From contig JAHBYH010000003.1 of NCBI GenBank assembly GCA_019636055.1, forward strand, positions 1 through 64,000: a stretch of 64,000 nt of DNA, read 5' to 3'. Both the position numbers and the translations under genes were made by a program. Below the pieces are notes generated by a model that made no database searches, was not told the origin of the DNA, and saw only the letters and a list, made by a program, of their open reading frames with translations. Source of the DNA: Candidatus Paracaedibacteraceae bacterium (GTDB taxonomy: Bacteria; Pseudomonadota; Alphaproteobacteria; Paracaedibacterales; Paracaedibacteraceae). This document shows, piece by piece, positions 1-21,415 of the stretch. Each line of letters opens with the position of its first letter. Within the stretch, counting starts at the first letter, position 1.

Positions 1-176
1 CATTTTGTTTTGACTATAGTGAGTGTGCTAACGTGTAATTTGGATAGAGCATTAAATTAAACGTCTTTGGTTGGCGAAGTACACCAAAAATTAATCACGA
101 TCTATTATATAATGACCTGAGAATTCTTTAACATGGGTTAAGACCCTATGTTGTAACATTGGAAGATATCTATATC

Positions 177-954: not shown

Positions 955-1701
955 TCATTCTGCGTTCCAAACAAAGTGATCTATTTCTTTAATGGCTTGC
1001 TTTGTTGATAGTGCTGCATAGTGGTTATCCCCAACAGAAAAAAAATCTGATGACCACAAAGAAGATTCCTCTGGAAATGGTTGGATATATATGGATGGAC
1101 GGGAGATATCATCGAGGGAAAACGTAACTTTGTCTATATCAAAACTAAAACCTACACCAATAGCTTTAATAAAAGATTCCTTTAATGTCCAATATTGGAA
1201 AAATAATTTTTGTCGTTCTGAAAGAGAGCTTGAAAAATAATTTTCTTGTTCCTTTAAGCTTAAGATTTGTTTAGCAATACTATCCTGATTTTTTATAGGT
1301 CGAATACATTCGACATCAATGCCAACACGGTGTTCCCTAGTCAAAGCGCATATGGCAAGGCCGTGAGTTTTACTAAAGTTAAATTCTACTCCGCATGGGT
1401 TATCATTTGGCTTAAGATAAGGCTTATTGTATTTATTAAAGGTCAAGGGAATTTGATGGGGAGAGCAATCAAGATACGCGCTCAGAATATGCCGCAGAGC
1501 AATATGACTATAGATATAGTCCCTTTGATGTTTAATATCCCTAAACTTTTCTGCAGTTTGAATTTCCCTAGGGCTTAAAACGGCTTTTTGTGTCGACGTT
1601 AAATCAAATTCAGCATCGAGGGGAATGTGCCAAACATGAACACAATTTTTCTCAATAATAATGGGTTGAGTAGACTGTAGGAAAGAAGAATTATGTTTCA
1701 T
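955..1701 (-). CDS. Sfp-type 4'-phosphopantetheinyl transferase
   Basis: This 248-residue protein matches the Sfp/HetI family, which transfers phosphopantetheine from coenzyme A to the active Ser of carrier proteins. The Mg-binding motif GIDVE is present (Asp129, Glu131), as is the second signature WTLKESFIKA with Trp171, Lys174, Glu175 and Lys179. Four carrier-protein domains in the two neighbouring synthases are its obvious substrates. The gene is divergent from the first synthase across about 290 bases and convergent with the thioesterase gene. Its position suggests a cluster-dedicated activator rather than the short AcpS of primary metabolism. Confidence 0.93.
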   Translation of the reverse strand: MKHNSSFLQSTQPIIIEKNCVHVWHIPLDAEFDLTSTQKAVLSPREIQTAEKFRDIKHQRDYIYSHIALRHILSAYLDCSPHQIPLTFNKYNKPYLKPNDNPCGVEFNFSKTHGLAICALTREHRVGIDVECIRPIKNQDSIAKQILSLKEQENYFSSSLSERQKLFFQYWTLKESFIKAIGVGFSFDIDKVTFSLDDISRPSIYIQPFPEESSLWSSDFFSVGDNHYAALSTKQAIKEIDHFVWNAE

Positions 1702-1933: not shown

Positions 1934-1993
1934 GTGTTTAGCATTAGTTTTGAAAGGGTAACTTTTATTCAAAAACAGATATTGGTGAGTGTA

Positions 1994-4900
1994 ATGAAAA
2001 TCAAAACTTTGGAAACATTGCAGACGTTGAATGAAGTACTTGATTATCATGCTAACCAAAAACCTACATCTATCGCATATCATTTCATATCTTCAGAAAA
2101 TCAAGAAAATTCTATTACCTACCAAGAGCTCTCTGACAGTGTAAAGAAGATAGCATCTAACTTGCTTTCTTATGCACGTAAAGGGGATCGAGTTATTCTG
2201 ATTTTCCATCCTGGATTAGAGCTTATACAGTCTTTTCTGGGATGCATATATGCAGGTATAATTCCTATTTTAAATTACCCGCCAACCAATCAAAAATTAA
2301 CGGATAAATTGGCCGGTATTATGGCAAACGCAGGAACGGATCTATTAATTATTCCAGAGAAATTAAAAGAGAAAGTAACTAATTACTCACTTCCCGAAGC
2401 TAAACAGTGGTTAGTGTTTGAAGATCTCGCTGCAACAACTTCAAGCGCGTCTCTGGCGGAAATAAAGCCACAAGATATTGCTTTTCTGCAATATACCTCT
2501 GGCTCGACAGGGGTTCCTAAGGGCGTGGTCATTACTCATAATAATATTTTAGATAATTTAAGATTACTACGGCAAGGTTTGGGGCTATATCATGATAACG
2601 CAGTGTTTGTCAGTTGGTTGCCGCCTTACCATGACATGGGACTTATTGGGGGAATTTTAAGTCCTTTCTATTCAGGGGTTCCTAGTGTTCTAATGGCCCC
2701 TTTAACCTTTATGATGCATCCCATTAAGTGGCTCAAGGCCATAAGTGACTATAAAGGGACTATCAGTGGTGGCCCTAATTTTGCTTATAACTATTGTTGT
2801 GAACGAATAAAACCTGAGCAATTAGCTTCTTTAGATCTCTCAAGTTGGAAATGTGCTTTCAATGGTGCAGAACCAATTCATGCGGAAACATTACAGAAAT
2901 TCTATAATATGTTTAAAGAATGTGGTTTTCGATATGAATCCTTCTTCCCTTGTTATGGAATGGCCGAGACAACTTTGTTTGTCAGTGGGGCTGACCTTGG
3001 TAAAGGCCCTGTTTTAAGAGATATTTCAGCGAGTGGGTTGCAAGAAGGGGATGTTCTTCCGCCAAAGAAATACCAAGACTCTTATACTTGCGTCAGTTCA
3101 GGACGCCCATACATGACTACAATAATTGTAGATCATAATACAGGAAAAATTTTAGCTGAGGATCAAATCGGTGAGATTTGGATTCAAGGACAAAGCGTTG
3201 CCGAAGGTTATTGGCAGCGACTAGACGTCACCGAGGAAATATTTAAAGCAACTGTTGAAGCGACTCAGGGAAACTTCTTGCGAACAGGCGATCTTGGTTT
3301 CATGAAGGATGGTGAGCTGTATGTTACAGGACGTCTTAAAGATCTCATCATTATTCAAGGTCGCAATTATTATCCCCAAGATATTGAATTGATCGCTGAA
3401 ATGAGCCATCCGCTTATTAAATCATCTGGATGTGCTGCATTTACTTTGGATCCAACGAACGAAAAATCGGTTTGTTTAGTCGCTGCGATTCAAGATAAAG
3501 GTGCTGAGACTTATCTTGAAATTGTTAGAAGTATCCGAATGGCTGTTGCCTCAAGTTTAGAACTAACCATAGAAAGGGTTGTTTTAATCCCCTCTCGTGC
3601 ATTGCCAAAGACCACCAGCGGAAAAGTACAACGTCGTCAAGCAAGGCAAATGGTACTCAATCAAGAATTTGACGTATTGTTTGAAGATTCTCAGGGGAAA
3701 GTTGTCGCAGAATCAGACCCTCAACCAAAAACCAACACAGAAATTAAACAGGTAATAGTTGATTGGATCAAGGAGCAAGGTCTTGTCGTCGGAGACCAAA
3801 GAATACGGGGAGATGAACAGTGGGTTGAATTAGGATTTGACTCTCTTAGGGTTGTTAATATGTGTGTATCTCTTGAAGAGATACTACAAATAAATATCAA
3901 TCCTGTTATTGTTTGGGACTATCCAAGCATTGACCAGTTCAGCGATTTTCTATCTGGGGGTAGGGCAGATCAGACTCCTTGTCATGCCCGGAATATGTTC
4001 TCTAACGAACCGATAGCAATAATAGGGATGGGTTGTCGTTTACCTGGTGGGGTGGGTCTGCGGGAGTTTTGGGACCTTCTTCAAGATGGTCGAGACGGGA
4101 TCAGAGACATTCCCTCCGAACGCTTTGATCTTGATGCCTATTATGATCCCGATCCTACAATACCCGGAAAGATGAATACCCGTTGGGGTGGTTTTATTGA
4201 TGATGTCGATCTTTTTGATGCGGCCTTCTTTGGTATCAGTCCTCGTGAAGCTGAGATGATGGACCCGCAACAACGCCTTCTGCTCGAGACAACGTGGAAA
4301 GCCTTGGAAAATGCGGGGATTAATCCGCAGCAGTTGAAGGAAAGCCATACAGCAATTCTCATTGGGGCGTCGACCTCCGATTATTCAAACTTGTTACTCC
4401 AACAAAAAACAAATGAAAGCCTTAATGCCTATCTTGGGACAGGAACAGCGCTGAGCGCGGATGCCGGAAGGTTGGCTTATGTGCTGGGAACGCGTGGTGA
4501 AGCCTTGACCATTGATACCGCCTGTTCATCTTCTCTGGTAGCTCTGTATCATGCTTGTGATGACCTACGGGATGGAGAATGTGATTTGGCCATAGCCGGC
4601 GCTGTTAATCTTGTTTTAGCACCGGACTTAACGGTTGCTTTGAGTAAAGCGGGGATGCTCTCTCCAACAGGGCGATGTCAGACTTTTGATGTGAATGCCA
4701 ATGGCTATGTTCGCTCAGAAGGATGTGGTGTGTTGATTCTCAAGCGCCTTGCAGATGCTGAACGGGATGGCGATCGTATTTTAGCCGTGATTAAGGGCAC
4801 AGCTGTCAATCAGGATGGCGCCAGCAATGGCTTTACGGCACCCAATGGTCGCGCTCAAGTCGAGGTATTTACAGAAGCTCTCCAAAAAAGTAACTTAAAG

Positions 4901-7900
4901 GGAACGGATATCGACTACATCGAAGCCCATGGTACGGGGACGCCGTTGGGTGATCCGATTGAAGTCCATTCTATTGCAGAAGTCTATGGCGGTGGCAGAC
5001 AGAAACCCCTGATCTTGGGATCCGTTAAGAGTAATATTGGCCACCTAGAAGCCGCAGCCGGTATGGCCGGTCTCATTAAAGTGGTTTTATCCTTGCAAAA
5101 CGAAAAGATTCCGGGCAACCTTCATTTCCAAACAGTGAATCCTTTAATTGAGTTAGATCGTATCCCGGCTCAAGTTGCAACGGGCCTGATTCCTTGGCAA
5201 CGTGGAGACAAACCGCGTCGAGCTGCCGTCAGCTCGTTTGGCTTTACAGGCACGAATGCCCATGTAATCTTAGAAGAGGCTCCACAATCCCCTAAAACAA
5301 TCAATGAGATCGATCGCCATGATCATATCTTAACGCTGTCTGCAAAATCAGAAGCGTCTCTTAAAGCGCTGACGGAGTCCTATCAGGCATATCTGTTCAC
5401 TCATCCTGAGTTTGATATTGGGGATGTTTGTTATACTGCCAACACCGGACGGGCTCACTTTGGCCACCGTGTTGCTGTCATCGGACAGACAGTTGAAGAC
5501 ATAGTCAATAAACTCAAGACCAGAGACTTTATTCAAGGAACAGCTCTGAATAATCATAAGGTCGCATTTTTATTCACCGGTCAAGGATCCCAGTATGTGG
5601 GGATGGGCAAAGCGTTGTATGAAACAAGTCCCGTCTTTAAAGACGCTTTAGATGAATGCGCTAATCTTCTCATAGAACATTTGGATAAACCTCTGCTCAA
5701 TGTGTTATGGGAAGATAAGGAAGCAATTCATCAAACTCAATACACTCAACCGTGTCTTTTTGCTCTTGAATACGCCCTGTTTAAAATGTGGCAAAGTTGG
5801 GGCATCCAACCCACATATGTCATGGGGCATAGTGTTGGGGAATATGTGGCTGCGGTTATAGCGGGCGTGATGTCACTAAGAGATGGTCTAAAATTAATTG
5901 CTGCCCGTGGCCGCCTAATGCAATCCTTGCCGGCTGGCGGCGGGATGGCAGCACTTCAGGTTGATGAAGAAACCTTAACGGCACTCATTCAAGAGTCAAA
6001 TGCTAACATTGACTTAGCCGCTGTTAATGGTCCAAAGCAACGGGTGATTTCCGGGACCTTGGACGAGATCCATAAGGTCGTGACACTCGCCAAGAGTAAA
6101 AAACTGAAAGCTCAACAACTGGAAGTGTCACATGCCTTCCACTCTTCGTTGATGGATCCAGTTCTCGAGGCGTTTAAAACCATAGCCGCAGCTATTGCGT
6201 ATAAGGCACCACAACTCGGTTTAGTCTCGAATGTGACAGGTACCGTCATGTTCGAAGCCCCGACCGCAGATTACTGGGTTAACCATCTGCGTCAAGCGGT
6301 TCAGTTTGAAGCCAGCATTCAAACATTAGAAGCTGAAGGATGTACGGCCTTTATTGAAGCAGGACCGTCCCCTGTCTTGACTACCTTGGGGCAACTCTGT
6401 GTGCCAGGTGACAACCACACCATATGGGTAGCCTCATTATCAGAGAAAGAGTCGGACTGGCAAATGTTGACGGAGAGTCTCTCTAATTTGTACATTGCTG
6501 GCGTTGAAATAGACTGGGCAGGTATTGATGCTCCCTATCATCGGCGCAAATTAGATCTGCCAACCTACGCCTTTGACCGGCAACGGTATTGGGCGCCTGT
6601 TCTGGATGAAGCACGCCGTCATCAGGATAATTATGTCGATCCTGACTGGTTCTATGGGCTGCAATGGCTCCCCCACGAGCTAAACTCAAGTGCGACAAGA
6701 GAAGCGTTGAGCAGACGTTGGTTACTGATTGGCGATCATCCTTTAATGCAAGAAGTCGGGTCTCTCCTCAAGGCAAAGGGAATATCATGCCTTACCCTTA
6801 ACGAAGATGTATTGGATAGCAAAGAGTCGGTCTTGTCGGCAATTTCTGATCTCGTCAAGGAAGAACCGCTGTCCGGGGTTATTTATGGTTTAGGTCTGGA
6901 TCAAGCAACGACGACACTATCAGATCTGAAGCATCAAACGGCCGGATTATTACACCTTGTTCAATCTTTGGTACAAGAGAATCAAGAACCTGTTCTTTGG
7001 GTCTTAACAGCCGACGCACAACCGATTGGAAAAATGACGAATCTTGCCGCAGCGCTCCTGTTAGGGATGAGTAAAGTGATTGCCCTGGAACATCCGGACT
7101 TACACTGCTCCCGCTTAGATCTAGACGGAACACAAGACATAACGCAACAAGCCGGGATTGTCTTAAACGAACTAGAACGCCGTGACGGCGAAGGAGAAGT
7201 AGCCTATCGCGAGGGGATCCGTTATGTGCCGCGCTTAGATCGGGTTAAAGATACCGTGGGCGGAAAACCTTTAGTTATTGATTCTAAGGCAAGCTATGTC
7301 ATTACCGGGGGCTTGGGTGCTCTAGGATTAGAAGTTGCCGGATGGCTAATCAGCAAAGGGGCAAAACATCTAACCTTGCTCGGTCGTCGCTCCCCTCATG
7401 ATCAAGCGACAGCTAAGATTGCTGATTGGCAATCACAGGGTGTTACGATCACGACAAGAACTGTCGATGTGGCCGATCGAGATGCTTTAGCTTCTGTGCT
7501 TTCTGAACATGGAACAGTCACCCCCCCCATCAAAGGTATTATTCATGCAGCAGGCGTGCTAGACGATCGATTGTTGATGAATCAAGAATGGTCTGTGTTC
7601 GAAAAAGTCTTGTCAGGCAAGGCAATGGGAGCGTGGCATTTACATGAATTGAGCGCTAACCTGCCTCTGGACTTCTTTATACTCTTCTCGTCTGTTGCAA
7701 GTATGGTGGGATCCTTAGGTCAAAGTAATTATGCCGCAGCCAATGCGTATCTTGATTCATTAGCCTATTATCGACACACCCATGATTTACCTGTCTTAAG
7801 TATTAACTGGGGTCCTTGGGCTGATGTAGGAATGGCCAATACCGTGCAAAAGTTCGATCCCGGTATCCAACGGCTTTCGATCAAGCATTCGCTTAATGCG

Positions 7901-9607
7901 CTCTCGCATTGTCTGAACACTTCGTTATCTCAATACATGGTCGCTGACATCAATTGGTCAACCCTTAATCTTGGCCAAGCAATGCCCGCTCTCCTTCAAA
8001 TCCTAAGCCCTAATTTAGGGGGGCATGAACAGTTGGCTGATAGGGACCAATTGTTACAAAACCCTCGCTATACCAACGAAGATAAACTAAATTACTTGGC
8101 ACCTCTCTTGACAGATTTTGTTCGAGAGATCTTAAAATTGCCGTTTCACCAAGAAATACGATTAGACCAAAACTTATTTGAATTGGGTATGGATTCATTA
8201 ATGACAATTCAACTTACGAATAAAATAAATAATTATTTGGGTAGTGATCTAAACTTAATTAGCAACAAAAAATTATCAGACGTTGCATCCATTTATGGAA
8301 TTGCAACCCTTGTTATAGAGAATTCCAATAAAAGAGCAGATGAAACACCCACACAAAATAATAATACATCATTTTGCATTCCTTTATCTCCGCAACAACT
8401 TGAAATATGGTCTTATTTAAAATCGCAACAAAACCATCTGGCTTATACTATCCCTTTAGCACTGAACCTTCCAACAGCAATCAAGATTAATTCTTTAAGC
8501 AATGCTATAGAAGTTATTCTAAACCGCCATGACATATTAAGAGCAACTTTTGTTACTCTCGAAGATCAACCTATCCAGATTATTCCGTCAAAAATAAACT
8601 TTTCATTGGAAACGTTAGACGCCCTTTCTGATAATTTAGAGGAGATATATAACACATTCTTCAACTCATCATTTAATCTTGAAAAAGGTCCTCTAATCAA
8701 ATTTTTATTGATTAACAAAGGTCCAGATCATTATGTTCTCCTCATGAATATCCATCACTTAATCTCAGATGGCACAACACCTATTCTTTTACTTTCGGAA
8801 ATTTTTGAAGAATATCAAAATCCTTTGAGAAAGAATGTTAGCGACTATTATCAATACTCTAATTATATCCAATGGACATTGGATAACATTTGTCCTTATC
8901 TAACAGGTTCCTTAAAGGATTACTGGGAAAATAATCTAAAGGGCTTTCAATACGTTGATCTTTTTAAGCAGCCCTCTAAACAAACGAACAAAGCTATTTC
9001 TGGAAGCAAATTAAGTTTTGATCTAGAACAGAGTATTATTGATAAACTTTATATACTAGCAAAAGATCACCATTTAACCCTCAGCAACTTATTTCTCGCG
9101 GCTATTCATAAAACGATATATCATTTTACGCACCAAGCGGATACTTCGATAATGGTCTTGTCTGCTGGGAGGAATAGTGGTGAGTGGAGCAATGTGATTG
9201 GCGATACATCCTGTGAATTAATTGTGCGTTGTCAAGACGTGCTGCAACAACCGCTTATTCAAATAGCAAAAGTTATCCAACAACAATTATTAGATATCCC
9301 TGACAACAAACAAGTACCTATATCAGTTTTACGATTGTTTGATATAAATATCCCGCCAATTTCTTATGATTTTCAGAGATTTGATCAGACGAGTATCACT
9401 ATCCATGACAAGACAATCACACCAATTCAAGTTTCAAGTGACTCGACTCATCTTTGGGGCATTGATTCCCGTCACCTGTCCTTTAAAGTGCGGTTATATC
9501 CTCATAACAAGATTCATATTACGTTGAAATATAGGCTAGATAAATACAGCGACGATCAAGCTACCCAAATACTGGGTAAGTTTATAGAAATATTGCAAGA
9601 GGTCTAA
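1994..9607 (+). CDS. Hybrid PKS 1: FAAL-ACP-KS-AT-KR-ACP-C
   Basis: This 2537-residue synthase is built in this order: fatty acyl-AMP ligase (about 1-585; YTSGSTGVPKG near 167 and TGRLKDLIIIQGRN), ACP1 (LGFDSL, Ser617), ketosynthase (about 673-1100; DTACSSS Cys844, EAHGTG His979, NIGHLE His1017), acyltransferase (GHSVG Ser1280; HAFH 1380-1383, typical of malonyl-CoA), ketoreductase (TGGLGALG; LDD motif of B-type), ACP2 (GMDSL, Ser2068) and a condensation domain (about 2128-2537; HHLISDG at 2254-2260). There is no DH, ER or thioesterase domain. Predicted action: load a fatty acid, extend it once by malonate, reduce to the beta-hydroxy acyl chain, then couple or release it through the C domain. 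ATG 1994 follows a GGTGAG; GTG 1934 is an alternative. Residues about 691-2011 are shared exactly with PKS 2. Confidence 0.95.
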   Translation: MKIKTLETLQTLNEVLDYHANQKPTSIAYHFISSENQENSITYQELSDSVKKIASNLLSYARKGDRVILIFHPGLELIQSFLGCIYAGIIPILNYPPTNQKLTDKLAGIMANAGTDLLIIPEKLKEKVTNYSLPEAKQWLVFEDLAATTSSASLAEIKPQDIAFLQYTSGSTGVPKGVVITHNNILDNLRLLRQGLGLYHDNAVFVSWLPPYHDMGLIGGILSPFYSGVPSVLMAPLTFMMHPIKWLKAISDYKGTISGGPNFAYNYCCERIKPEQLASLDLSSWKCAFNGAEPIHAETLQKFYNMFKECGFRYESFFPCYGMAETTLFVSGADLGKGPVLRDISASGLQEGDVLPPKKYQDSYTCVSSGRPYMTTIIVDHNTGKILAEDQIGEIWIQGQSVAEGYWQRLDVTEEIFKATVEATQGNFLRTGDLGFMKDGELYVTGRLKDLIIIQGRNYYPQDIELIAEMSHPLIKSSGCAAFTLDPTNEKSVCLVAAIQDKGAETYLEIVRSIRMAVASSLELTIERVVLIPSRALPKTTSGKVQRRQARQMVLNQEFDVLFEDSQGKVVAESDPQPKTNTEIKQVIVDWIKEQGLVVGDQRIRGDEQWVELGFDSLRVVNMCVSLEEILQININPVIVWDYPSIDQFSDFLSGGRADQTPCHARNMFSNEPIAIIGMGCRLPGGVGLREFWDLLQDGRDGIRDIPSERFDLDAYYDPDPTIPGKMNTRWGGFIDDVDLFDAAFFGISPREAEMMDPQQRLLLETTWKALENAGINPQQLKESHTAILIGASTSDYSNLLLQQKTNESLNAYLGTGTALSADAGRLAYVLGTRGEALTIDTACSSSLVALYHACDDLRDGECDLAIAGAVNLVLAPDLTVALSKAGMLSPTGRCQTFDVNANGYVRSEGCGVLILKRLADAERDGDRILAVIKGTAVNQDGASNGFTAPNGRAQVEVFTEALQKSNLKGTDIDYIEAHGTGTPLGDPIEVHSIAEVYGGGRQKPLILGSVKSNIGHLEAAAGMAGLIKVVLSLQNEKIPGNLHFQTVNPLIELDRIPAQVATGLIPWQRGDKPRRAAVSSFGFTGTNAHVILEEAPQSPKTINEIDRHDHILTLSAKSEASLKALTESYQAYLFTHPEFDIGDVCYTANTGRAHFGHRVAVIGQTVEDIVNKLKTRDFIQGTALNNHKVAFLFTGQGSQYVGMGKALYETSPVFKDALDECANLLIEHLDKPLLNVLWEDKEAIHQTQYTQPCLFALEYALFKMWQSWGIQPTYVMGHSVGEYVAAVIAGVMSLRDGLKLIAARGRLMQSLPAGGGMAALQVDEETLTALIQESNANIDLAAVNGPKQRVISGTLDEIHKVVTLAKSKKLKAQQLEVSHAFHSSLMDPVLEAFKTIAAAIAYKAPQLGLVSNVTGTVMFEAPTADYWVNHLRQAVQFEASIQTLEAEGCTAFIEAGPSPVLTTLGQLCVPGDNHTIWVASLSEKESDWQMLTESLSNLYIAGVEIDWAGIDAPYHRRKLDLPTYAFDRQRYWAPVLDEARRHQDNYVDPDWFYGLQWLPHELNSSATREALSRRWLLIGDHPLMQEVGSLLKAKGISCLTLNEDVLDSKESVLSAISDLVKEEPLSGVIYGLGLDQATTTLSDLKHQTAGLLHLVQSLVQENQEPVLWVLTADAQPIGKMTNLAAALLLGMSKVIALEHPDLHCSRLDLDGTQDITQQAGIVLNELERRDGEGEVAYREGIRYVPRLDRVKDTVGGKPLVIDSKASYVITGGLGALGLEVAGWLISKGAKHLTLLGRRSPHDQATAKIADWQSQGVTITTRTVDVADRDALASVLSEHGTVTPPIKGIIHAAGVLDDRLLMNQEWSVFEKVLSGKAMGAWHLHELSANLPLDFFILFSSVASMVGSLGQSNYAAANAYLDSLAYYRHTHDLPVLSINWGPWADVGMANTVQKFDPGIQRLSIKHSLNALSHCLNTSLSQYMVADINWSTLNLGQAMPALLQILSPNLGGHEQLADRDQLLQNPRYTNEDKLNYLAPLLTDFVREILKLPFHQEIRLDQNLFELGMDSLMTIQLTNKINNYLGSDLNLISNKKLSDVASIYGIATLVIENSNKRADETPTQNNNTSFCIPLSPQQLEIWSYLKSQQNHLAYTIPLALNLPTAIKINSLSNAIEVILNRHDILRATFVTLEDQPIQIIPSKINFSLETLDALSDNLEEIYNTFFNSSFNLEKGPLIKFLLINKGPDHYVLLMNIHHLISDGTTPILLLSEIFEEYQNPLRKNVSDYYQYSNYIQWTLDNICPYLTGSLKDYWENNLKGFQYVDLFKQPSKQTNKAISGSKLSFDLEQSIIDKLYILAKDHHLTLSNLFLAAIHKTIYHFTHQADTSIMVLSAGRNSGEWSNVIGDTSCELIVRCQDVLQQPLIQIAKVIQQQLLDIPDNKQVPISVLRLFDINIPPISYDFQRFDQTSITIHDKTITPIQVSSDSTHLWGIDSRHLSFKVRLYPHNKIHITLKYRLDKYSDDQATQILGKFIEILQEV
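4064..8025 (+). repeat. Left arm of a 3,962-bp inverted repeat (KS-AT-KR cassette)
   Basis: The segment pairs with 14175-18136 on the other strand by the rule x' = 22200 - x, with no indel. The translations are identical throughout as read, and every DNA segment I compared was identical, including an eight-C run near 7521-7528. The left edge lies in the first residues of the KS; before it the two genes still resemble each other with scattered mismatches. The right edge is abrupt, just after the KR. The sampled line at 5041-5100 is 50% GC, against 20% at 8221-8280 just outside. The arm lies wholly inside the coding region of PKS 1. Confidence 0.97.
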
Positions 9608-9630
9608 ATGATTTTGGTCCTTATTGCATT

Positions 9631-10503
9631 TTAGTTGCGTGGCATATCTCGGTGATCAATACGTGTATTGAAATTTAATTCTTTAAGCCACGCCCCCACG
9701 TGCTCGACCATAAAAACTGATCGATGTTGTCCACCAGTACAACCACAAGCAATAGTTATGAATTTTCCTAAATCCACCTTTTTGAAATTAAAAAGAGTCA
9801 TCTTAATAAGCGATTTCATACTGATAGAATAATCTTGCCAATTGGGATCACGTTCAATAAATTCTTGAACTTCTAAATCTTTTCCAGTTAATGCTGAGCA
9901 TGTTCTGTCGTAATGGGGATTTGGTAAGAAACGCCCATCAAAGACAAGGTTAGCTTCTTTAGGAATTCCCATTCGATAAGAAAAAGATATCAATCTGACT
10001 AACGGCAGCTTTTCTCCGGTTACATCGAAATAATGCTCTATCATACTCTCAAGAATCTCTGCCGAAAGTGTAGTTGTCTCGATCGCGATCGTTGCATACT
10101 GGCGCAAATAACTTATTAGAGCAAATTGTTCCTTTAGCTGATTGAGATCCTTTTCAGAATTACTTAGCCCTTCCCCCAATAGCTCGTACAAATCATCAAT
10201 AAGACATAGAAATGTTAGATTGTTGCTGCTACGAGTAAAATTTATTTTTTGCTCAACAAACTTCTCTCTAATATTGATCAGCTCTCTATTAAGCGTAAGG
10301 CTAATAACCAAGTGGTCAGCTGAAGGGTGGCCTAATTGTAAAAATAGCTCCTGAGTACTGCAGTTCTTGATAATGCTATACCCGATTGCTTCTAATTTCT
10401 TTAAAGCAATCTCTTGTTTTAGCCCAGGCATGGCAGCCATAATAATTATTTTTTGCTCCATTCCTTTTACCCCATGAGGTGGCTTAACAATTATTTTAGC
10501 CAT
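9631..10503 (-). CDS. RapZ-like protein with a degenerate P-loop
   Basis: The C-terminal half carries clear RapZ (YvcJ) signatures: SFSYRMGIPKEANLVFDGRF, LPNPHYDR, LTGKD and ACGCTGGQHRSV. Standard RapZ is a nucleotide-binding adaptor that in enterobacteria controls GlmZ RNA and senses glucosamine-6-phosphate through its C-terminal domain. Here the N-terminal Walker A GxSGxGKS is replaced by AAMPGLKQ (about residues 23-30), so ATP/GTP binding is probably lost. It converges on PKS 1 with a 23-base gap and sits inside the segment flanked by the inverted repeat. That is an unusual place for rapZ, which more often accompanies PTS or HPr kinase genes. Met15 is an alternative start. Function here is unknown; family confidence is high. 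Confidence 0.85.
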   Translation of the reverse strand: MAKIIVKPPHGVKGMEQKIIIMAAMPGLKQEIALKKLEAIGYSIIKNCSTQELFLQLGHPSADHLVISLTLNRELINIREKFVEQKINFTRSSNNLTFLCLIDDLYELLGEGLSNSEKDLNQLKEQFALISYLRQYATIAIETTTLSAEILESMIEHYFDVTGEKLPLVRLISFSYRMGIPKEANLVFDGRFLPNPHYDRTCSALTGKDLEVQEFIERDPNWQDYSISMKSLIKMTLFNFKKVDLGKFITIACGCTGGQHRSVFMVEHVGAWLKELNFNTRIDHRDMPRN

Positions 10504-10631
10504 ACTCTGATTTCAATATGACGCATAATCCTAAAGATTTCTTTAACAACGCCTTGCTTCTGTTAAGCATTTTTTATCTATTTTTTGCCACAATATATAA
10601 AGGATAGGTATTCACTTAACCGAGAAAATTA

Positions 10632-11648
10632 ATGGATGATCAAGCATTATTAAATGTAACAAAGCCTATTTTAAAGGAATGTTGTGGCTCTGAGCCCATC
10701 TCAATAAAGTCTTTAGCTAAAACTTATCACAGCGCTACATTTTTACTTATCACTGAAGACGGAAGTAAAGTTATTCTAAAAACTCATAATCTTTCTTATC
10801 TTTGTGCAGCTTATGTTTTGTCTGTGCAACAAATTTTGAACCATCTAGAGTACCAAAATCAGCTCATTAATAATGTAAGGGATCTAACCCGATCACCTGG
10901 CATGAAAACAGTTTTTGGAAAAACTGTTTTCGAAGAAGACGGAATATGTTTTTCTCTCTACGATTTTGTCGAAGGCCAAGAGTATGATGTAAATGACCTG
11001 AATGAAAAGCAAAAATTACAAGTCATAGAGTTATTATCCAAAATACATAAAATTCCTGTTGATAGTATTGATCCTATCTTCTTAGAACAAAAAAAAATAT
11101 ATGGCCTCAATCTCGTACGCCCTCTTGAAAACAAGAATAAGATTATGAATGGCTTGTCTCAAGCTAGTCTTCTTTTTAAGGATAAGGAAACACTTGAGAT
11201 TTTAAATAACAAATTTGCATCATTAAATCTCAAAGACTTTTTTATTGATCAGTTATCGGGGGATGACATTGTCTTTGCCCATAATGATATTAAACCAAAG
11301 AATATCTTATGGATGTCTGAGGAAATATTCTCTTTAATTGATTGGGAAGCTGTTTATTTATTTCCTAGGACGATAGACGTAGTTGAAACTGTTGCAAGCT
11401 TTTCTATGGTAAAGAAGCAGGATAATTACGATATTGATACACGGTTATATAAGAAATTAATTAGATGTTATGAAGCGTTTAGTGGGGTATCTTTAAAAAT
11501 CCAAGAGAACGATATTTTAATTTCTGTTCTAAGACAATTATTTTGGATGTCAAAATGTTTTGAAGGTCAGAACTATGAGGCAGCAAAAGATGCTTGGTAT
11601 AAATTGGCTGCTTTGACGAATAGTTTTGAGGAACTCAAATATGGCTAA
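10632..11648 (+). CDS. APH/choline-kinase-fold phosphotransferase
   Basis: This 338-residue protein has the catalytic signature of the aminoglycoside phosphotransferase/choline kinase superfamily: AHNDIKPKNIL (His217, Asp219, Asn224), followed by LIDWE (Asp237), the metal-binding Asp. An N-terminal kinase lobe with VILKTHN fits ATP binding. The substrate cannot be read from sequence. It could phosphorylate the cluster product or a head group, or confer self-protection. Its last 8 bases overlap the start of the MFS gene, so the two are probably co-translated. Both lie between the inverted-repeat arms and would flip together. Confidence 0.8.
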   Translation: MDDQALLNVTKPILKECCGSEPISIKSLAKTYHSATFLLITEDGSKVILKTHNLSYLCAAYVLSVQQILNHLEYQNQLINNVRDLTRSPGMKTVFGKTVFEEDGICFSLYDFVEGQEYDVNDLNEKQKLQVIELLSKIHKIPVDSIDPIFLEQKKIYGLNLVRPLENKNKIMNGLSQASLLFKDKETLEILNNKFASLNLKDFFIDQLSGDDIVFAHNDIKPKNILWMSEEIFSLIDWEAVYLFPRTIDVVETVASFSMVKKQDNYDIDTRLYKKLIRCYEAFSGVSLKIQENDILISVLRQLFWMSKCFEGQNYEAAKDAWYKLAALTNSFEELKYG

Positions 11649-12903
11649 CTCAACGAGCGTTTTAGAGTACATTTCCCGCAGAATAAGTTTTTATTCCAAA
11701 GTATCTGGGAGCTACTTTCCTTTACTCCTTGGTCACCTGATATTTATACTTTCTGGAAAAATTATTCTCTTAAGCGCAATTATTTACTTTTTTGAAGATA
11801 CTAAATCACTTGAGTTTTTAATAATGATTAGCATATACGGCTATTTACCGGCTCTTGTCATTCTATGGTGTCTCATTCCCCTTCTTCGTTTCCTGCGGAT
11901 TAAAACGACACTAATCTTGACCAGTGTATTGATGATTTTTGGTATATTACTTTTAGCATACATCTCTACCTCTCTTAAAAGCTATTTGCATTCTTCAGTT
12001 GCGACTCTATGTTTAATTTTGATCTTTTCAAACGTTGAAAATGTTATGTTTGATCGACTGTGTTCGCTTTTCACAAAATCCATACAAAAGAAAATTGCCA
12101 TAAGTCTTAATAGACAAGCTAATTATATCGGCTATTTTCTATCGCCGATTATAACAGGATGCTTTCTAAGTTTCCTAACATTTCAACAGCTTCTCTTGGT
12201 ACAGGTTTTATTTATCCTGCCCTTAATATTTTTCACCTACACCAGTAAAACCTGCGACGTTTTTCCATCCACTCGCTCTCTAGCAGAATATAATGTTAAG
12301 GAAGTGATTACATCAAAGATTGATTATCTCTTTTATTACTTTCTTTTTACTCTCTCTTTTATTTGGCTCAATATAGTTAATGTTTCAGCAATACCCTTCT
12401 TAAAACTTTCATTTAGTAACATTGATGTTGGTATTCTCTTGTCTCTATCGGGCTTTGGCGGGGTATTAGGCAACGGGATTTTCTTTAACAAAAATCAATT
12501 AAACAAGGTTTTTCATTCTAATTATAACTTTGCGTATTTGACTGCTTTGTCTGTGATCGTATTAGGATGGATAAACATTAGTTTTATTTTACTTGGATTA
12601 ATATTTTTTATTGGGGGATTTTGCTCTTCTTATTGTTTTGCATCCGCCCAGCACTTCTTCCAAGATAATATAAATCAGAATAAACTTACAAAAGTATTCA
12701 TGGTACGAAATATTCTAAGCTCTTTGACAATTATACTGATAACTTTAATGACCGGTTTTCTCTCAACACCCATTTTGAAGAATTTAGCTTCGCACTTTAC
12801 AACAGATTTCGGACTAGAAAAAGCTTTCTTCTTTTTCTTTACCTTAATAGGAAGCAGTTCGTTTATTATGCTCGCTGTCCTAAAACATAGAAAAGCCTTT
12901 TAA
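11641..12903 (+). CDS. MFS-like membrane transporter, probable exporter
   Basis: The 420-residue protein is strongly hydrophobic, with roughly twelve predicted membrane segments and glycine-rich turns such as SGFGGVLGNG, in line with the major facilitator superfamily. ATG 11641 is preferred because GAGGA lies 8 bases upstream, inside the end of the kinase gene; a TTG at 11626 is possible. The ATGGCTAA overlap with the kinase stop suggests translational coupling. In a biosynthetic cluster an MFS protein most often exports the product, but the specificity is inferred from context only. The gene converges on PKS 2 with a gap of about 37 bases. Confidence 0.72.
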   Translation: MANSTSVLEYISRRISFYSKVSGSYFPLLLGHLIFILSGKIILLSAIIYFFEDTKSLEFLIMISIYGYLPALVILWCLIPLLRFLRIKTTLILTSVLMIFGILLLAYISTSLKSYLHSSVATLCLILIFSNVENVMFDRLCSLFTKSIQKKIAISLNRQANYIGYFLSPIITGCFLSFLTFQQLLLVQVLFILPLIFFTYTSKTCDVFPSTRSLAEYNVKEVITSKIDYLFYYFLFTLSFIWLNIVNVSAIPFLKLSFSNIDVGILLSLSGFGGVLGNGIFFNKNQLNKVFHSNYNFAYLTALSVIVLGWINISFILLGLIFFIGGFCSSYCFASAQHFFQDNINQNKLTKVFMVRNILSSLTIILITLMTGFLSTPILKNLASHFTTDFGLEKAFFFFFTLIGSSSFIMLAVLKHRKAF

Positions 12904-12940
12904 TACCTTAGACTTATTGATTAGCATTGACAGTCAATAA

Positions 12941-15900
12941 TTATAGTTTCTTTCTTATAAACGTTTTATCGGCTTTTCCTACCCATTCAGGTATTTTTTC
13001 CACAACATAAAACCCAGATTTCAAATAAAGACTTAAAGCATCACTTCCTAATGTCCCCCCAATAAACTCTTTACAATTTTGCCGCTTCAAGTAATCCGTA
13101 AAACTATCAAATAAAATTTTACTGACATTTGTTCCTCTAAAGTTGCTATCAATCCATGCAGAAGTCCCAACGCCATAAGACATAACGTGGTAACCCATTG
13201 CCCCCCCAACGATAGAATTATTATGGCCAGAGGTTATATAAATCGCAAAATCTATGGGATGTCCTTCAAAGTAATGAGAATTAATACTTGCCATTTCTTT
13301 AAGAAGCATTCCTTTAATAAGGCCATCATCACTCACAAAAAGAATATCTTCATCTCTTTCAGCTGCTCCCTTTAATTGTGCAATATTTTTTCTCAGGAGA
13401 AATAAATCATAGGGGACAGGAAAATTTGGAAGGATTTTTACCAACTCAAATCCCTGCTTCTCAAAGAAAACAGGATGTTGGTAATTGAATAAATCAAGTT
13501 GAATTGTGTCGCATCCTTCGTTGAAAACGTGGGTTTCAAATGCCTTAAATAACCTATTTGCAATTCCTTGCTTGCGGTAATCTTTACGAACCCACAGAGC
13601 ATTTATCGATGCTGTTTTTTTATCCTCATAAACAGATATTGTCCCTACCAATCCAGCAACAGTTGCGTTGGTTTTTTTGTCCTGAAAAATAAAGGTGAGA
13701 TCTTGTTCATGGGTCTTTCTTAGTAAGATCTCATTGTAACTATTTAAACCACTTTTAATTAAATCTTTTGTTGTTTTACTGACAGGTGATTCAAAATGAA
13801 TTTTGAAATCATTTTCGTCTCGTGTTTTAGAGGTGGATTCTGTAATAATGCTCCCTATGCTTGGAGCTGCATGTTCAGTAAAATTACTCTGAATAAATGA
13901 CGCCAATGAATTAATGGTATTATAGGTATAGATGTCTTTTATTGTTATCGTAACCATATCCTTCATTTCTTTATTAATTATATGGGCAAATTCAGCTGCC
14001 ATTAAGGAATTATTCCCCAATTCAAAGAAATTTTTGTCATAGTCATTTTCCGATATCCCAACTGCGACAAGACGTTTCAAATAACTGGCTAAAAGTATAC
14101 TTAAAGACTGAATTTTCTTTTCAATTGAGATGGATGAATTTGTTAATGACAACATTTCCTGAGACAAAGGCTGTTGCCCCCCTAAATTAGGGCTTAGGAT
14201 TTGAAGGAGAGCGGGCATTGCTTGGCCAAGATTAAGGGTTGACCAATTGATGTCAGCGACCATGTATTGAGATAACGAAGTGTTCAGACAATGCGAGAGC
14301 GCATTAAGCGAATGCTTGATCGAAAGCCGTTGGATACCGGGATCGAACTTTTGCACGGTATTGGCCATTCCTACATCAGCCCAAGGACCCCAGTTAATAC
14401 TTAAGACAGGTAAATCATGGGTGTGTCGATAATAGGCTAATGAATCAAGATACGCATTGGCTGCGGCATAATTACTTTGACCTAAGGATCCCACCATACT
14501 TGCAACAGACGAGAAGAGTATAAAGAAGTCCAGAGGCAGGTTAGCGCTCAATTCATGTAAATGCCACGCTCCCATTGCCTTGCCTGACAAGACTTTTTCG
14601 AACACAGACCATTCTTGATTCATCAACAATCGATCGTCTAGCACGCCTGCTGCATGAATAATACCTTTGATGGGGGGGGTGACTGTTCCATGTTCAGAAA
14701 GCACAGAAGCTAAAGCATCTCGATCGGCCACATCGACAGTTCTTGTCGTGATCGTAACACCCTGTGATTGCCAATCAGCAATCTTAGCTGTCGCTTGATC
14801 ATGAGGGGAGCGACGACCGAGCAAGGTTAGATGTTTTGCCCCTTTGCTGATTAGCCATCCGGCAACTTCTAATCCTAGAGCACCCAAGCCCCCGGTAATG
14901 ACATAGCTTGCCTTAGAATCAATAACTAAAGGTTTTCCGCCCACGGTATCTTTAACCCGATCTAAGCGCGGCACATAACGGATCCCCTCGCGATAGGCTA
15001 CTTCTCCTTCGCCGTCACGGCGTTCTAGTTCGTTTAAGACAATCCCGGCTTGTTGCGTTATGTCTTGTGTTCCGTCTAGATCTAAGCGGGAGCAGTGTAA
15101 GTCCGGATGTTCCAGGGCAATCACTTTACTCATCCCTAACAGGAGCGCTGCGGCAAGATTCGTCATTTTTCCAATCGGTTGTGCGTCGGCTGTTAAGACC
15201 CAAAGAACAGGTTCTTGATTCTCTTGTACCAAAGATTGAACAAGGTGTAATAATCCGGCCGTTTGATGCTTCAGATCTGATAGTGTCGTCGTTGCTTGAT
15301 CCAGACCTAAACCATAAATAACCCCGGACAGCGGTTCTTCCTTGACGAGATCAGAAATTGCCGACAAGACCGACTCTTTGCTATCCAATACATCTTCGTT
15401 AAGGGTAAGGCATGATATTCCCTTTGCCTTGAGGAGAGACCCGACTTCTTGCATTAAAGGATGATCGCCAATCAGTAACCAACGTCTGCTCAACGCTTCT
15501 CTTGTCGCACTTGAGTTTAGCTCGTGGGGGAGCCATTGCAGCCCATAGAACCAGTCAGGATCGACATAATTATCCTGATGACGGCGTGCTTCATCCAGAA
15601 CAGGCGCCCAATACCGTTGCCGGTCAAAGGCGTAGGTTGGCAGATCTAATTTGCGCCGATGATAGGGAGCATCAATACCTGCCCAGTCTATTTCAACGCC
15701 AGCAATGTACAAATTAGAGAGACTCTCCGTCAACATTTGCCAGTCCGACTCTTTCTCTGATAATGAGGCTACCCATATGGTGTGGTTGTCACCTGGCACA
15801 CAGAGTTGCCCCAAGGTAGTCAAGACAGGGGACGGTCCTGCTTCAATAAAGGCCGTACATCCTTCAGCTTCTAATGTTTGAATGCTGGCTTCAAACTGAA

Positions 15901-18900
15901 CCGCTTGACGCAGATGGTTAACCCAGTAATCTGCGGTCGGGGCTTCGAACATGACGGTACCTGTCACATTCGAGACTAAACCGAGTTGTGGTGCCTTATA
16001 CGCAATAGCTGCGGCTATGGTTTTAAACGCCTCGAGAACTGGATCCATCAACGAAGAGTGGAAGGCATGTGACACTTCCAGTTGTTGAGCTTTCAGTTTT
16101 TTACTCTTGGCGAGTGTCACGACCTTATGGATCTCGTCCAAGGTCCCGGAAATCACCCGTTGCTTTGGACCATTAACAGCGGCTAAGTCAATGTTAGCAT
16201 TTGACTCTTGAATGAGTGCCGTTAAGGTTTCTTCATCAACCTGAAGTGCTGCCATCCCGCCGCCAGCCGGCAAGGATTGCATTAGGCGGCCACGGGCAGC
16301 AATTAATTTTAGACCATCTCTTAGTGACATCACGCCCGCTATAACCGCAGCCACATATTCCCCAACACTATGCCCCATGACATATGTGGGTTGGATGCCC
16401 CAACTTTGCCACATTTTAAACAGGGCGTATTCAAGAGCAAAAAGACACGGTTGAGTGTATTGAGTTTGATGAATTGCTTCCTTATCTTCCCATAACACAT
16501 TGAGCAGAGGTTTATCCAAATGTTCTATGAGAAGATTAGCGCATTCATCTAAAGCGTCTTTAAAGACGGGACTTGTTTCATACAACGCTTTGCCCATCCC
16601 CACATACTGGGATCCTTGACCGGTGAATAAAAATGCGACCTTATGATTATTCAGAGCTGTTCCTTGAATAAAGTCTCTGGTCTTGAGTTTATTGACTATG
16701 TCTTCAACTGTCTGTCCGATGACAGCAACACGGTGGCCAAAGTGAGCCCGTCCGGTGTTGGCAGTATAACAAACATCCCCAATATCAAACTCAGGATGAG
16801 TGAACAGATATGCCTGATAGGACTCCGTCAGCGCTTTAAGAGACGCTTCTGATTTTGCAGACAGCGTTAAGATATGATCATGGCGATCGATCTCATTGAT
16901 TGTTTTAGGGGATTGTGGAGCCTCTTCTAAGATTACATGGGCATTCGTGCCTGTAAAGCCAAACGAGCTGACGGCAGCTCGACGCGGTTTGTCTCCACGT
17001 TGCCAAGGAATCAGGCCCGTTGCAACTTGAGCCGGGATACGATCTAACTCAATTAAAGGATTCACTGTTTGGAAATGAAGGTTGCCCGGAATCTTTTCGT
17101 TTTGCAAGGATAAAACCACTTTAATGAGACCGGCCATACCGGCTGCGGCTTCTAGGTGGCCAATATTACTCTTAACGGATCCCAAGATCAGGGGTTTCTG
17201 TCTGCCACCGCCATAGACTTCTGCAATAGAATGGACTTCAATCGGATCACCCAACGGCGTCCCCGTACCATGGGCTTCGATGTAGTCGATATCCGTTCCC
17301 TTTAAGTTACTTTTTTGGAGAGCTTCTGTAAATACCTCGACTTGAGCGCGACCATTGGGTGCCGTAAAGCCATTGCTGGCGCCATCCTGATTGACAGCTG
17401 TGCCCTTAATCACGGCTAAAATACGATCGCCATCCCGTTCAGCATCTGCAAGGCGCTTGAGAATCAACACACCACATCCTTCTGAGCGAACATAGCCATT
17501 GGCATTCACATCAAAAGTCTGACATCGCCCTGTTGGAGAGAGCATCCCCGCTTTACTCAAAGCAACCGTTAAGTCCGGTGCTAAAACAAGATTAACAGCG
17601 CCGGCTATGGCCAAATCACATTCTCCATCCCGTAGGTCATCACAAGCATGATACAGAGCTACCAGAGAAGATGAACAGGCGGTATCAATGGTCAAGGCTT
17701 CACCACGCGTTCCCAGCACATAAGCCAACCTTCCGGCATCCGCGCTCAGCGCTGTTCCTGTCCCAAGATAGGCATTAAGGCTTTCATTTGTTTTTTGTTG
17801 GAGTAACAAGTTTGAATAATCGGAGGTCGACGCCCCAATGAGAATTGCTGTATGGCTTTCCTTCAACTGCTGCGGATTAATCCCCGCATTTTCCAAGGCT
17901 TTCCACGTTGTCTCGAGCAGAAGGCGTTGTTGCGGGTCCATCATCTCAGCTTCACGAGGACTGATACCAAAGAAGGCCGCATCAAAAAGATCGACATCAT
18001 CAATAAAACCACCCCAACGGGTATTCATCTTTCCGGGTATTGTAGGATCGGGATCATAATAGGCATCAAGATCAAAGCGTTCGGAGGGAATGTCTCTGAT
18101 CCCGTCTCGACCATCTTGAAGAAGGTCCCAAAACTCTTTGAGATCCGCCCCACCAGGTAAACGACAACCAATCCCTATTATCGCTATTGGTTCTTTGGAT
18201 GCTTGGGTGATTTTCTGGGCATGAAGCGACTTTGCTGTTGTCAAATATTCTGCTAATTTTACTGGCGTGGGGTAGTCCCATAACAGCACAGGAGATAACT
18301 CTACGCCACACCATTCGCTTAACTCGCTACAGAATTGAGCCGCCAAGAGAGAGGTAAAGCCATAGTTGGCAAAAGAATCTTGTCCTGTAACTAATGGCAG
18401 ATCAAAGCTTTGTTTGATCCAATCTTGTATCCACATTAATATGTCAACGGAATCTTTCGAAACCAGAGGCATTTTGTTCCTGTTTTGAATTTTCGGCGCT
18501 TGCCATTCTGCTTGAATACGCAACTCTCCATTCAGCAGCATTGACTGGGTTAATTTTCGCTGTACCTTACCACTTGACGTTTTTGGTAAACTCGCCCGTT
18601 GAATGAGAATAATCCGTTGAACAAACACCTCATGAGCTTGCGAAATGGCTTGGCGAATTGCTGCAAAGATAGACTCGAAGTCCTTTATGTGACGTTTAAC
18701 TTCTTGAACAATGACAAGTTCAGATCCCTTGTCGGTATCAATCGTAAAGGCAGCAGCGGCATTATTAATTAGGTCTTCATGGCTTTCTGCAGTGGTATGT
18801 TCAAAGTCTTGCGGATAATAGTTACGACCACCGATAATAATTAGGTCTTTAAGACGCCCTGTAACATAAACATGACCATGATTATCGACCCAGCCTAAGT

Positions 18901-20170
18901 CACCGGTACGAAGGTACTCTTTTTCTGAGTCATCACCTTTAACCTTAGCCTTAAAAATCTCTTGTGTTAACTCAGGCTTACCCCAATACCCCTGAGCAAC
19001 ACTTGGCCCATGGAACCAGATTTCTCCAATTTGATCATGAGCCGCTATTTCTCGTGTTTCAGGGTCTAAAATCTTGATTTTATTGTCATGACTTGGCCAA
19101 CCACAATCGACCAACTCGTAAGAATCTTCAGGAGATTGGGGCGCCTTAATTTTGCCTTCTTCCAGAGCGGCCTTAGAAACTTCAATTGTCTTAGGGGAAT
19201 AACAAAGTGCAGTTTCTAAAGTTGTTTCTGCCATCCCATATCCTGGGCGCATGCTGCTTTCTTGAAACCCATAAGGACTAAATGTTTTTATGAAGTTACG
19301 AATGGTATCTGCCCGAACCGGCTCGGCTCCGTTAATAGCAAATGTCCACTGACTTAAATCTAACAGTGGCATTCCTCCTTGGAGGGTCGCCTCAACACAC
19401 AAGTCATAGGCAAAATTAGGAGCAGCGACAGCGGTCACACCTTCTTGTGAGATAATCTGTAACCAGCGAATAGGATCGCTGACAAATGAACTAGGCGACA
19501 TCAAAAAGTCAGGCCAACCATAGTAAAGCGGTAATAATATGCCATAAACCAAACCCATATCGTGGTAGGGCGGCAACCATGAACATACTTTATTTTCTCC
19601 CTCGTTCATAAAAGAACGAAGAATCTGGATGTTAACTGTCAAATTCTCATGGCTGACAATAACGCCTTTTGGGTTGCCAGTGGAACCTGATGTATATTGT
19701 AGAAAAGCAATATCCTGAGGTGCAACAGGGTATTCTTGATAAAGGCTAGGATTAATATCACTGCATTGTTCGATAAAGCAAATTTTAGAGGATAGATTAT
19801 CGAGTCTATCTTCGAAGTTCTGGGTCGTGAGAATAAACTTTGCCCCTGCATCTTCGATAACCTTTTCGAGGCGTTTCGTATGGTGATTATTGCGGGGAGG
19901 ATAGGCAGGAACAGCAATTACCCCTGCATAAAGGCACCCCATGAAAGCGGCTATATAATCTAGGCTTGGATTTAAAAGGATCATCACGCGCTCACCTTGA
20001 CAATCTCCATATGATTGTAACAAAGTGGCTATACACCGAGCACGACGATCGAGTTCGTTATAGGTTATTTCTTCGCGAGACTCATTGCGAAAAAAGGTAT
20101 AGGCAATCCTATCAGGATGTAGTTTTGACCAATTTTTGAGAGACCCAATGATCGTAGACTTAGTAAACAT
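12941..20170 (-). CDS. Hybrid PKS 2: FAAL-ACP-KS-AT-KR-ACP-GNAT-GNAT
   Basis: This 2409-residue synthase parallels PKS 1: FAAL (about 1-570; YTSGSTGNPKG, TGRLKDLIIIGGRN), ACP1 (GFTSL, Ser607; the usual Asp before Ser is Thr), KS (Cys832), AT (Ser1268, HAFH), KR (B-type LDD) and ACP2 (GNNSL, Ser2055; Asp replaced by Asn). The C-terminus is different: two GNAT-like domains, about 2125-2260 (RKQGIA acetyl-CoA loop at 2199-2204) and about 2270-2409 (the same position reads RGTNVS, degenerate). GNAT domains in PKSs are known mainly as loading domains, as in CurA, so a terminal tandem pair is unusual. The start is well supported by AGAAGG 7 bases upstream. Residues about 679-1999 are shared exactly with PKS 1. 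Confidence 0.95.
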   Translation of the reverse strand: MFTKSTIIGSLKNWSKLHPDRIAYTFFRNESREEITYNELDRRARCIATLLQSYGDCQGERVMILLNPSLDYIAAFMGCLYAGVIAVPAYPPRNNHHTKRLEKVIEDAGAKFILTTQNFEDRLDNLSSKICFIEQCSDINPSLYQEYPVAPQDIAFLQYTSGSTGNPKGVIVSHENLTVNIQILRSFMNEGENKVCSWLPPYHDMGLVYGILLPLYYGWPDFLMSPSSFVSDPIRWLQIISQEGVTAVAAPNFAYDLCVEATLQGGMPLLDLSQWTFAINGAEPVRADTIRNFIKTFSPYGFQESSMRPGYGMAETTLETALCYSPKTIEVSKAALEEGKIKAPQSPEDSYELVDCGWPSHDNKIKILDPETREIAAHDQIGEIWFHGPSVAQGYWGKPELTQEIFKAKVKGDDSEKEYLRTGDLGWVDNHGHVYVTGRLKDLIIIGGRNYYPQDFEHTTAESHEDLINNAAAAFTIDTDKGSELVIVQEVKRHIKDFESIFAAIRQAISQAHEVFVQRIILIQRASLPKTSSGKVQRKLTQSMLLNGELRIQAEWQAPKIQNRNKMPLVSKDSVDILMWIQDWIKQSFDLPLVTGQDSFANYGFTSLLAAQFCSELSEWCGVELSPVLLWDYPTPVKLAEYLTTAKSLHAQKITQASKEPIAIIGIGCRLPGGADLKEFWDLLQDGRDGIRDIPSERFDLDAYYDPDPTIPGKMNTRWGGFIDDVDLFDAAFFGISPREAEMMDPQQRLLLETTWKALENAGINPQQLKESHTAILIGASTSDYSNLLLQQKTNESLNAYLGTGTALSADAGRLAYVLGTRGEALTIDTACSSSLVALYHACDDLRDGECDLAIAGAVNLVLAPDLTVALSKAGMLSPTGRCQTFDVNANGYVRSEGCGVLILKRLADAERDGDRILAVIKGTAVNQDGASNGFTAPNGRAQVEVFTEALQKSNLKGTDIDYIEAHGTGTPLGDPIEVHSIAEVYGGGRQKPLILGSVKSNIGHLEAAAGMAGLIKVVLSLQNEKIPGNLHFQTVNPLIELDRIPAQVATGLIPWQRGDKPRRAAVSSFGFTGTNAHVILEEAPQSPKTINEIDRHDHILTLSAKSEASLKALTESYQAYLFTHPEFDIGDVCYTANTGRAHFGHRVAVIGQTVEDIVNKLKTRDFIQGTALNNHKVAFLFTGQGSQYVGMGKALYETSPVFKDALDECANLLIEHLDKPLLNVLWEDKEAIHQTQYTQPCLFALEYALFKMWQSWGIQPTYVMGHSVGEYVAAVIAGVMSLRDGLKLIAARGRLMQSLPAGGGMAALQVDEETLTALIQESNANIDLAAVNGPKQRVISGTLDEIHKVVTLAKSKKLKAQQLEVSHAFHSSLMDPVLEAFKTIAAAIAYKAPQLGLVSNVTGTVMFEAPTADYWVNHLRQAVQFEASIQTLEAEGCTAFIEAGPSPVLTTLGQLCVPGDNHTIWVASLSEKESDWQMLTESLSNLYIAGVEIDWAGIDAPYHRRKLDLPTYAFDRQRYWAPVLDEARRHQDNYVDPDWFYGLQWLPHELNSSATREALSRRWLLIGDHPLMQEVGSLLKAKGISCLTLNEDVLDSKESVLSAISDLVKEEPLSGVIYGLGLDQATTTLSDLKHQTAGLLHLVQSLVQENQEPVLWVLTADAQPIGKMTNLAAALLLGMSKVIALEHPDLHCSRLDLDGTQDITQQAGIVLNELERRDGEGEVAYREGIRYVPRLDRVKDTVGGKPLVIDSKASYVITGGLGALGLEVAGWLISKGAKHLTLLGRRSPHDQATAKIADWQSQGVTITTRTVDVADRDALASVLSEHGTVTPPIKGIIHAAGVLDDRLLMNQEWSVFEKVLSGKAMGAWHLHELSANLPLDFFILFSSVASMVGSLGQSNYAAANAYLDSLAYYRHTHDLPVLSINWGPWADVGMANTVQKFDPGIQRLSIKHSLNALSHCLNTSLSQYMVADINWSTLNLGQAMPALLQILSPNLGGQQPLSQEMLSLTNSSISIEKKIQSLSILLASYLKRLVAVGISENDYDKNFFELGNNSLMAAEFAHIINKEMKDMVTITIKDIYTYNTINSLASFIQSNFTEHAAPSIGSIITESTSKTRDENDFKIHFESPVSKTTKDLIKSGLNSYNEILLRKTHEQDLTFIFQDKKTNATVAGLVGTISVYEDKKTASINALWVRKDYRKQGIANRLFKAFETHVFNEGCDTIQLDLFNYQHPVFFEKQGFELVKILPNFPVPYDLFLLRKNIAQLKGAAERDEDILFVSDDGLIKGMLLKEMASINSHYFEGHPIDFAIYITSGHNNSIVGGAMGYHVMSYGVGTSAWIDSNFRGTNVSKILFDSFTDYLKRQNCKEFIGGTLGSDALSLYLKSGFYVVEKIPEWVGKADKTFIRKKL
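14175..18136 (-). repeat. Right arm of the 3,962-bp inverted repeat (KS-AT-KR cassette)
   Basis: This is the reverse complement of 4064-8025 and lies wholly inside PKS 2. The two arms are separated by 6,149 bases containing the 3' ends of both synthases, the RapZ-like gene, the kinase and the transporter. The reading frames of both synthases run through the arms in the same register, so a crossover anywhere in the arm keeps both proteins open. Confidence 0.97.
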
Positions 20171-21323: not shown

Positions 21324-21375
21324 CTTGTGTGAATTATCGTATGGTTAATCAACTTAATATAATAATAGACGGTTC

Positions 21376-21404: not shown

Positions 21405-21415
21405 AGGATTGTTCG

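Follow-up and report, generated by a model that had tools for sequence, protein, structure and literature searches.

An identical inverted core in two convergent polyketide synthase genes of a Paracaedibacteraceae genome and the in-frame exchange of ends predicted from it

The window, the 64-kb stretch of DNA analysed here, forms the start of a 337,560-bp contig (C3) in a genome of 1.72 Mb and five contigs, and its closest named match is Candidatus Paracaedibacter symbiosus PRA9. Another contig of this genome, C4, is exactly 160,000 bp long, an unusually round length for an assembled contig. Two convergent, oppositely facing polyketide synthase (PKS) genes were identified. PKS1 (1934..9607, forward strand) encodes a protein of 2,557 aa (2,537 aa in its database entry, P0005) with the domain order FAAL1-ACP-KS-AT-KR-ACP-C, and PKS2 (12941..20170, reverse strand) encodes 2,409 aa with the order FAAL2-ACP-KS-AT-KR-ACP-GNAT. 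A further GNAT domain, suggested in PKS2 by a weak self-match of 18.6% over 97 residues, is possible. The end of PKS1 consists of its second ACP (ACP2) and a condensation domain with the motif HHxxxDG (8026..9607, forward strand), and that of PKS2 of its own ACP2 and GNAT domain or domains (12941..14174, reverse strand), for which AlphaFold2, run on the single sequence, returned a mean pLDDT of 38. Two accessory genes, for a free thioesterase (159..875, forward strand) and a 4'-phosphopantetheinyl transferase (955..1701, reverse strand), are also present.

Most of the KS, AT and KR domains of PKS1 are encoded by a left arm (4064..8025, forward strand) that is the reverse complement of a right arm (14175..18136, reverse strand) encoding most of the same domains of PKS2, with a middle of 6,149 bp between the two. 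The first-pass annotation had described the arms as exact reverse complements, without an indel, in every segment it compared, lying within two PKS genes in one reading register. The full comparison bears this out: all 3,962 of 3,962 bp match, with no mismatch or indel, and both arms, covering residues 711-2030 of PKS1 and 679-1998 of PKS2, begin at codon phase 0. In a repeat search these arms were the sole inverted pair of at least 40 bp in the window. Self-BLAST lengthens the pair to 4,025 bp at 99.7%, running through an outer margin of diverged homology at the start of the KS (4001..4063, forward strand, and its partner 18137..18199, reverse strand). Codons -1 to -4 of this margin do not match between the two genes, seven identical codons follow them, and the homology is gradually lost by about codon -21. 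The Pfam KS match begins at residue 692 of PKS1 and 660 of PKS2, so with the arm starting 19 residues further in, the first part of each KS remains with its own FAAL-ACP; as the arm ends ahead of the second ACP, each ACP2 moves with its own release domain. The arms have a G+C content of 0.48 and a GC3 of 0.44 (0.34-0.43 and 0.29-0.37, respectively, in the rest of both genes), and this higher G+C may reflect a core with its own history.

The middle holds three genes, all of them entirely within the invertible part: a divergent RapZ-like protein (9631..10503, reverse strand), an APH/choline-kinase-like protein (10632..11648, forward strand), and a hydrophobic protein of 425 aa (11626..12903, forward strand). 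The last has no Pfam or NCBIfam match and, among 42 genomes of the order, none beyond itself; from its sequence it is likely an exporter. The RapZ-like protein, which is 35-36% identical to the family's RapZ-like proteins, sits inside a PKS locus next to a kinase-like gene; another RapZ-like copy is found elsewhere in the same genome (G000:C1:479793-480623). Scans of the middle returned promoter-like and terminator-like sequences at chance level (15 against 14.5 expected, and 2 against 2.1 expected). Beyond the PKS genes, the window encodes a YhcG/DUF1016 nuclease-like protein (21317-22240) that matches the PADLOC candidate PDC-S02 and stops short of the profile end. An exact 29-bp direct repeat (21376-21404 and 22461-22489) has one copy in this gene, and the other opens the next gene. 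A protein encoded at 32427-33779 matches the Vps62 domain, whose family takes its name from a eukaryotic protein.

When 4064-18136 was inverted in silico, both frames stayed open, as the first-pass annotation had claimed, giving proteins of 2,441 aa (FAAL1 to GNAT) and 2,525 aa (FAAL2 to C). The exchange of an ACP-C for an ACP-GNAT-GNAT end that it had proposed stands in its geometry, with the second GNAT reduced to a weak possibility. Compared with their parents, the flipped proteins contain no new 60-aa window (0 of 2,382 and 0 of 2,466) and no new 1,000-aa window; new windows of 1,330 aa number nine in each, as expected. In one parent or the other, each ACP1 already stands before this KS and each ACP2 after this KR, and the only novelty in the flipped proteins is the long-range pairing of a starter with a release domain. 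All FAAL, KS, AT, KR, ACP, C or GNAT motifs that were scanned are retained in the two parent and two flipped proteins.

Outside the arms, the two synthases are far apart. Identity between PKS1 and PKS2 is 41.9% in the FAAL, 26% in ACP1 and 27% in ACP2, as against 100% in KS, AT and KR, and by these values the parts outside the arms are old paralogues. The PKS of Candidatus Paracaedibacter symbiosus PRA9 (locus L007) matches PKS1 at 62.7% (FAAL), 52.5% (ACP1), 68.6% (KS) and 64.8% (AT); it matches FAAL2 of PKS2 at 43.7% and its ACP1 at 44% over 43 residues. In a tree of 39 FAAL rows, picked from the best matches, FAAL1 pairs with that of L007 (100/100), and the partner of FAAL2 is a Shimazuella FAAL (99/93); the two pairs join weakly (80/69), so the FAALs may still be distant sisters. 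A phosphopantetheinyl transferase gene adjoins the PKS both here and in the L007 genome, the two proteins being 29% identical. As in concerted evolution, the cores are 100% identical within the locus compared with 65-69% to the nearest named relative (AT, KS), and the segments outside the tract retain separate histories in both the identities and the FAAL tree. Since L007 is nearer to PKS1 (53-69%, FAAL through AT) than to FAAL2 (44%), PKS1 is likely the vertically inherited gene, and its core most likely replaced the one in PKS2, leaving a gene-conversion footprint. On these comparisons copying is well supported for the KS and AT parts of the core; in the KR part, where the arm finds no counterpart in L007, the direction of copying is unsupported. 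Given that the arms show zero differences (upper 95% bound on divergence, 7.6e-4), the copying event should be recent or repeated. An NRPS of about 3.2-kb tandem modules is encoded in a genome of the same genus (G001:C1:1012000-1031999, locus L107, at about 5348-15748 of that locus). Its exact direct repeats of 3,749, 2,615 and 2,612 bp indicate that module-scale homogenisation takes place elsewhere in the genus too; recombination within that array should tend to add or remove modules.

The PKS pair is found in 1 of the 42 genomes of the order, namely its own, and the full-length arm, present there twice, is absent from the other 41 genomes searched. At 1e-60 some part of the arm is matched in eight of the 42 genomes including its own, with the whole arm left uncovered in the other seven. 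The whole GNAT tail is likewise confined to its own genome among the 42; some match to it at 0.001 occurs in 20 of them, otherwise covering single-GNAT stretches. No flipped copy was seen in the 42 genomes, of which one only has the pair, or among the protein matches listed. Two full-length protein searches (about 7,990 candidates scored in each) revealed no chimeric PKS among the best 120 of 7,925 and of 7,800 matches; they listed PKS1 itself (P0005, with two member sequences on one contig, of 337,560 bp) and not PKS2, possibly the other of the two sequences in that entry. Given that PKS2 is not an entry of its own, these searches say little about flips. A search with the tail protein gave four matches, all NRPS-like and covering 11-20% of the query, and PKS2 was not among them. 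A self-BLAST survey of 111 loci for repeats of at least 500 bp and at least 90% identity found direct repeats in L061, L064, L068 and L107 and a single inverted repeat, in L108, which is formed by two copies of a 236-aa ORF, probably an IS transposase; the 77 genome-scan loci (L007-L083) had no inverted repeat of the surveyed size. The survey is a weak control, as many of the loci come from draft assemblies, in which such repeats may be collapsed, and were chosen without regard to convergent PKS pairs.

Homologous recombination can act on inverted arms of this length and exactness. The genome encodes RecA (a 361-aa frame on contig C5, with a second match under the cut-off), so that both a recA gene and long identical arms, as needed for RecA-dependent inversion, are present. 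Genome-wide searches for tyrosine integrases (PF00589) and resolvases (PF00239) gave two matches each. The nearer integrase, at 51801-52760, is the sole PF00589 match in the window and is separated from the right arm by about 34 kb; both resolvases are on other contigs, leaving no match to either family within 33 kb of the arms.

From these data, we favor, at a probability of about 0.58, the reading that a likely conversion of the PKS2 core by that of PKS1 has left arms between which homologous recombination is predicted to invert the 6,149-bp middle, thereby exchanging the ends of the two genes in frame. The core would have been copied from PKS1 to PKS2 by gene conversion. Further conversion without crossover would hold the arms identical, and a crossover between them, by the same homologous recombination, would invert the middle. 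Because the exact core is inverted and in one phase, such an inversion would exchange the ACP-condensation and ACP-GNAT ends with neither gene broken. Judging from the domains, each FAAL would load its own fatty acid, the common core would add one malonyl unit and reduce the product to a 3-hydroxyacyl chain, and the condensation or GNAT domain would release the chain onto an acceptor. As a flip would give each of the two starters the other release step, four products rather than two could come from a mixed population. That the middle flips, how often it would do so, and what products result are inferred, as is the direction of copying. Flipping of the middle is likely, and inversion is the expected by-product of the recombination that homogenises the core. 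A reversible assembly-line switch, in which the 14-kb flip would alternate two pairs of acyl products within a clone and gene conversion would keep the core identical, is a tentative possibility with the odds against it. A selected switch is possible, and we make no claim that the arms are maintained by selection for switching. The switch reading of the first-pass annotation accordingly survives in part: its geometry and in-frame outcome hold, and the comparisons point first to recent copying or homogenisation of the core.

The main rival to a selected switch is plain concerted evolution, in which the cores became identical through a single, recent act of copying or conversion, since the two synthases require the same extension step, and flips are rare and inconsequential. 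A single recent copying explains the identity with no later flip, it agrees with a core that is identical when everything else has diverged, and such homogenisation is documented for PKS modules (PMC4256081) and is suggested by the near-identical tandem NRPS modules of the same-genus genome. However, exact 4-kb arms lying 6.1 kb apart in a genome that encodes RecA should also cross over, with both outcomes open; this explanation in fact allows flips and denies only their importance, and as a full account of the locus we consider it doubtful. It is improbable that the repeat is an effect of assembly, with slightly different arms collapsed to a consensus or the orientation of the middle chosen arbitrarily. 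The left arm does lie 4,063 bp from the start of the contig, and four of the ten contig ends looked at carry imperfect repeats (nine of the ten were scanned for RNA families, and none gave a match), so it is uncertain which type of read spanned the arms; the orientation of the middle, too, is that of the assembled sequence alone. Nevertheless, both arms are on one contig, the window has no N, the unique flanks differ between the arms, and the opening 1.9 kb of the contig occurs just once in the genome. Even with collapsed arms, two FAALs and two ends, all different, must still meet such a core somewhere.

A dedicated site-specific invertase acting at short sites at the arm edges, with the long arms incidental, appears very unlikely. 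Some inverting hsdS systems do carry a recombinase at the locus (PMC7394358), and the pneumococcal spnIII locus still inverts in mutants of homologous recombination pathways (PMC6620402). Here, the ORFs scanned in the middle and next to the arms include no recombinase, and of the two integrase (PF00589) and two resolvase (PF00239) matches in the genome none lies within 33 kb of the arms. A recombinase encoded at the locus is present in some invertible hsdS-type systems and is not essential.

As far as the accessible portions of the cited papers go, the closest known relatives of this arrangement are of several kinds. In the mycolactone PKS (mls), three modules share a stretch of 2,682 nt, reaching from AT to KR, at 100% identity, and this near-identity, much like that seen here, was attributed to recombination-mediated domain replacement that changes the products (PMC2569948). 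That system has many modules, and the same portion of text speaks of replacement, duplication and deletion with no mention of inversion; here, in contrast, there is one core in two convergent genes. In the rapamycin family and others, PKS and NRPS domains within a cluster are homogenised by internal recombination (PMC4256081), and new rapalogs have been obtained from recombination between homologous PKS repeats (PMC5663706). The homogenisation within a locus is common to both cases, but there it is a series of modules that is homogenised or changed, whereas here a crossover would reversibly swap the ends of two genes. At inverting Type I hsdS loci, crossover between inverted repeats in coding sequence joins halves in frame and yields alternative proteins (PMC7394358), and at spnIII inversion goes on even when the known site-specific recombinases are missing (PMC6620402). 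The PKS locus shares with hsdS its same-phase inverted repeats in two coding sequences that are open after inversion. The pneumococcal repeats, however, are of 15, 85 and 33 bp, and a single locus is the expressed one (PMC7394358), as opposed to a 4-kb core repeat, genes that are whole in both states, biosynthetic enzymes as products, and a flip predicted from sequence. In chloroplast DNA, long inverted repeats enclose sequence that very frequently inverts (PMC3147054), and long inverted repeats flank a predicted invertible middle here as well. A flip here would re-pair protein halves, which chloroplast inverted repeats are not known to join. The fusion of clbJ and clbK in the colibactin system is also relevant. 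For phase variation, polyketide synthases and DNA inversion taken together, the accessible part of PMC9648514 concerns separate genes. Among the literature matches listed (in places 12 of 205 and 10 of 56, with few subscription journals), none describes a swap of PKS or NRPS ends by inversion; the first-pass annotation likewise knew of no described natural PKS switch of this form.

Recombining near-identical PKS modules are already known from mycolactone and rapamycin. The switch is a good, specific and cheaply testable hypothesis. Evolution has already made the boundary of the swap compatible: both starters and both ends are joined to the same core. If both orientations coexist, it would become testable whether PKS modules that have been homogenised merely remain after recombination or are retained as a way of varying the products, and the locus would represent natural combinatorial polyketide synthesis by DNA inversion.
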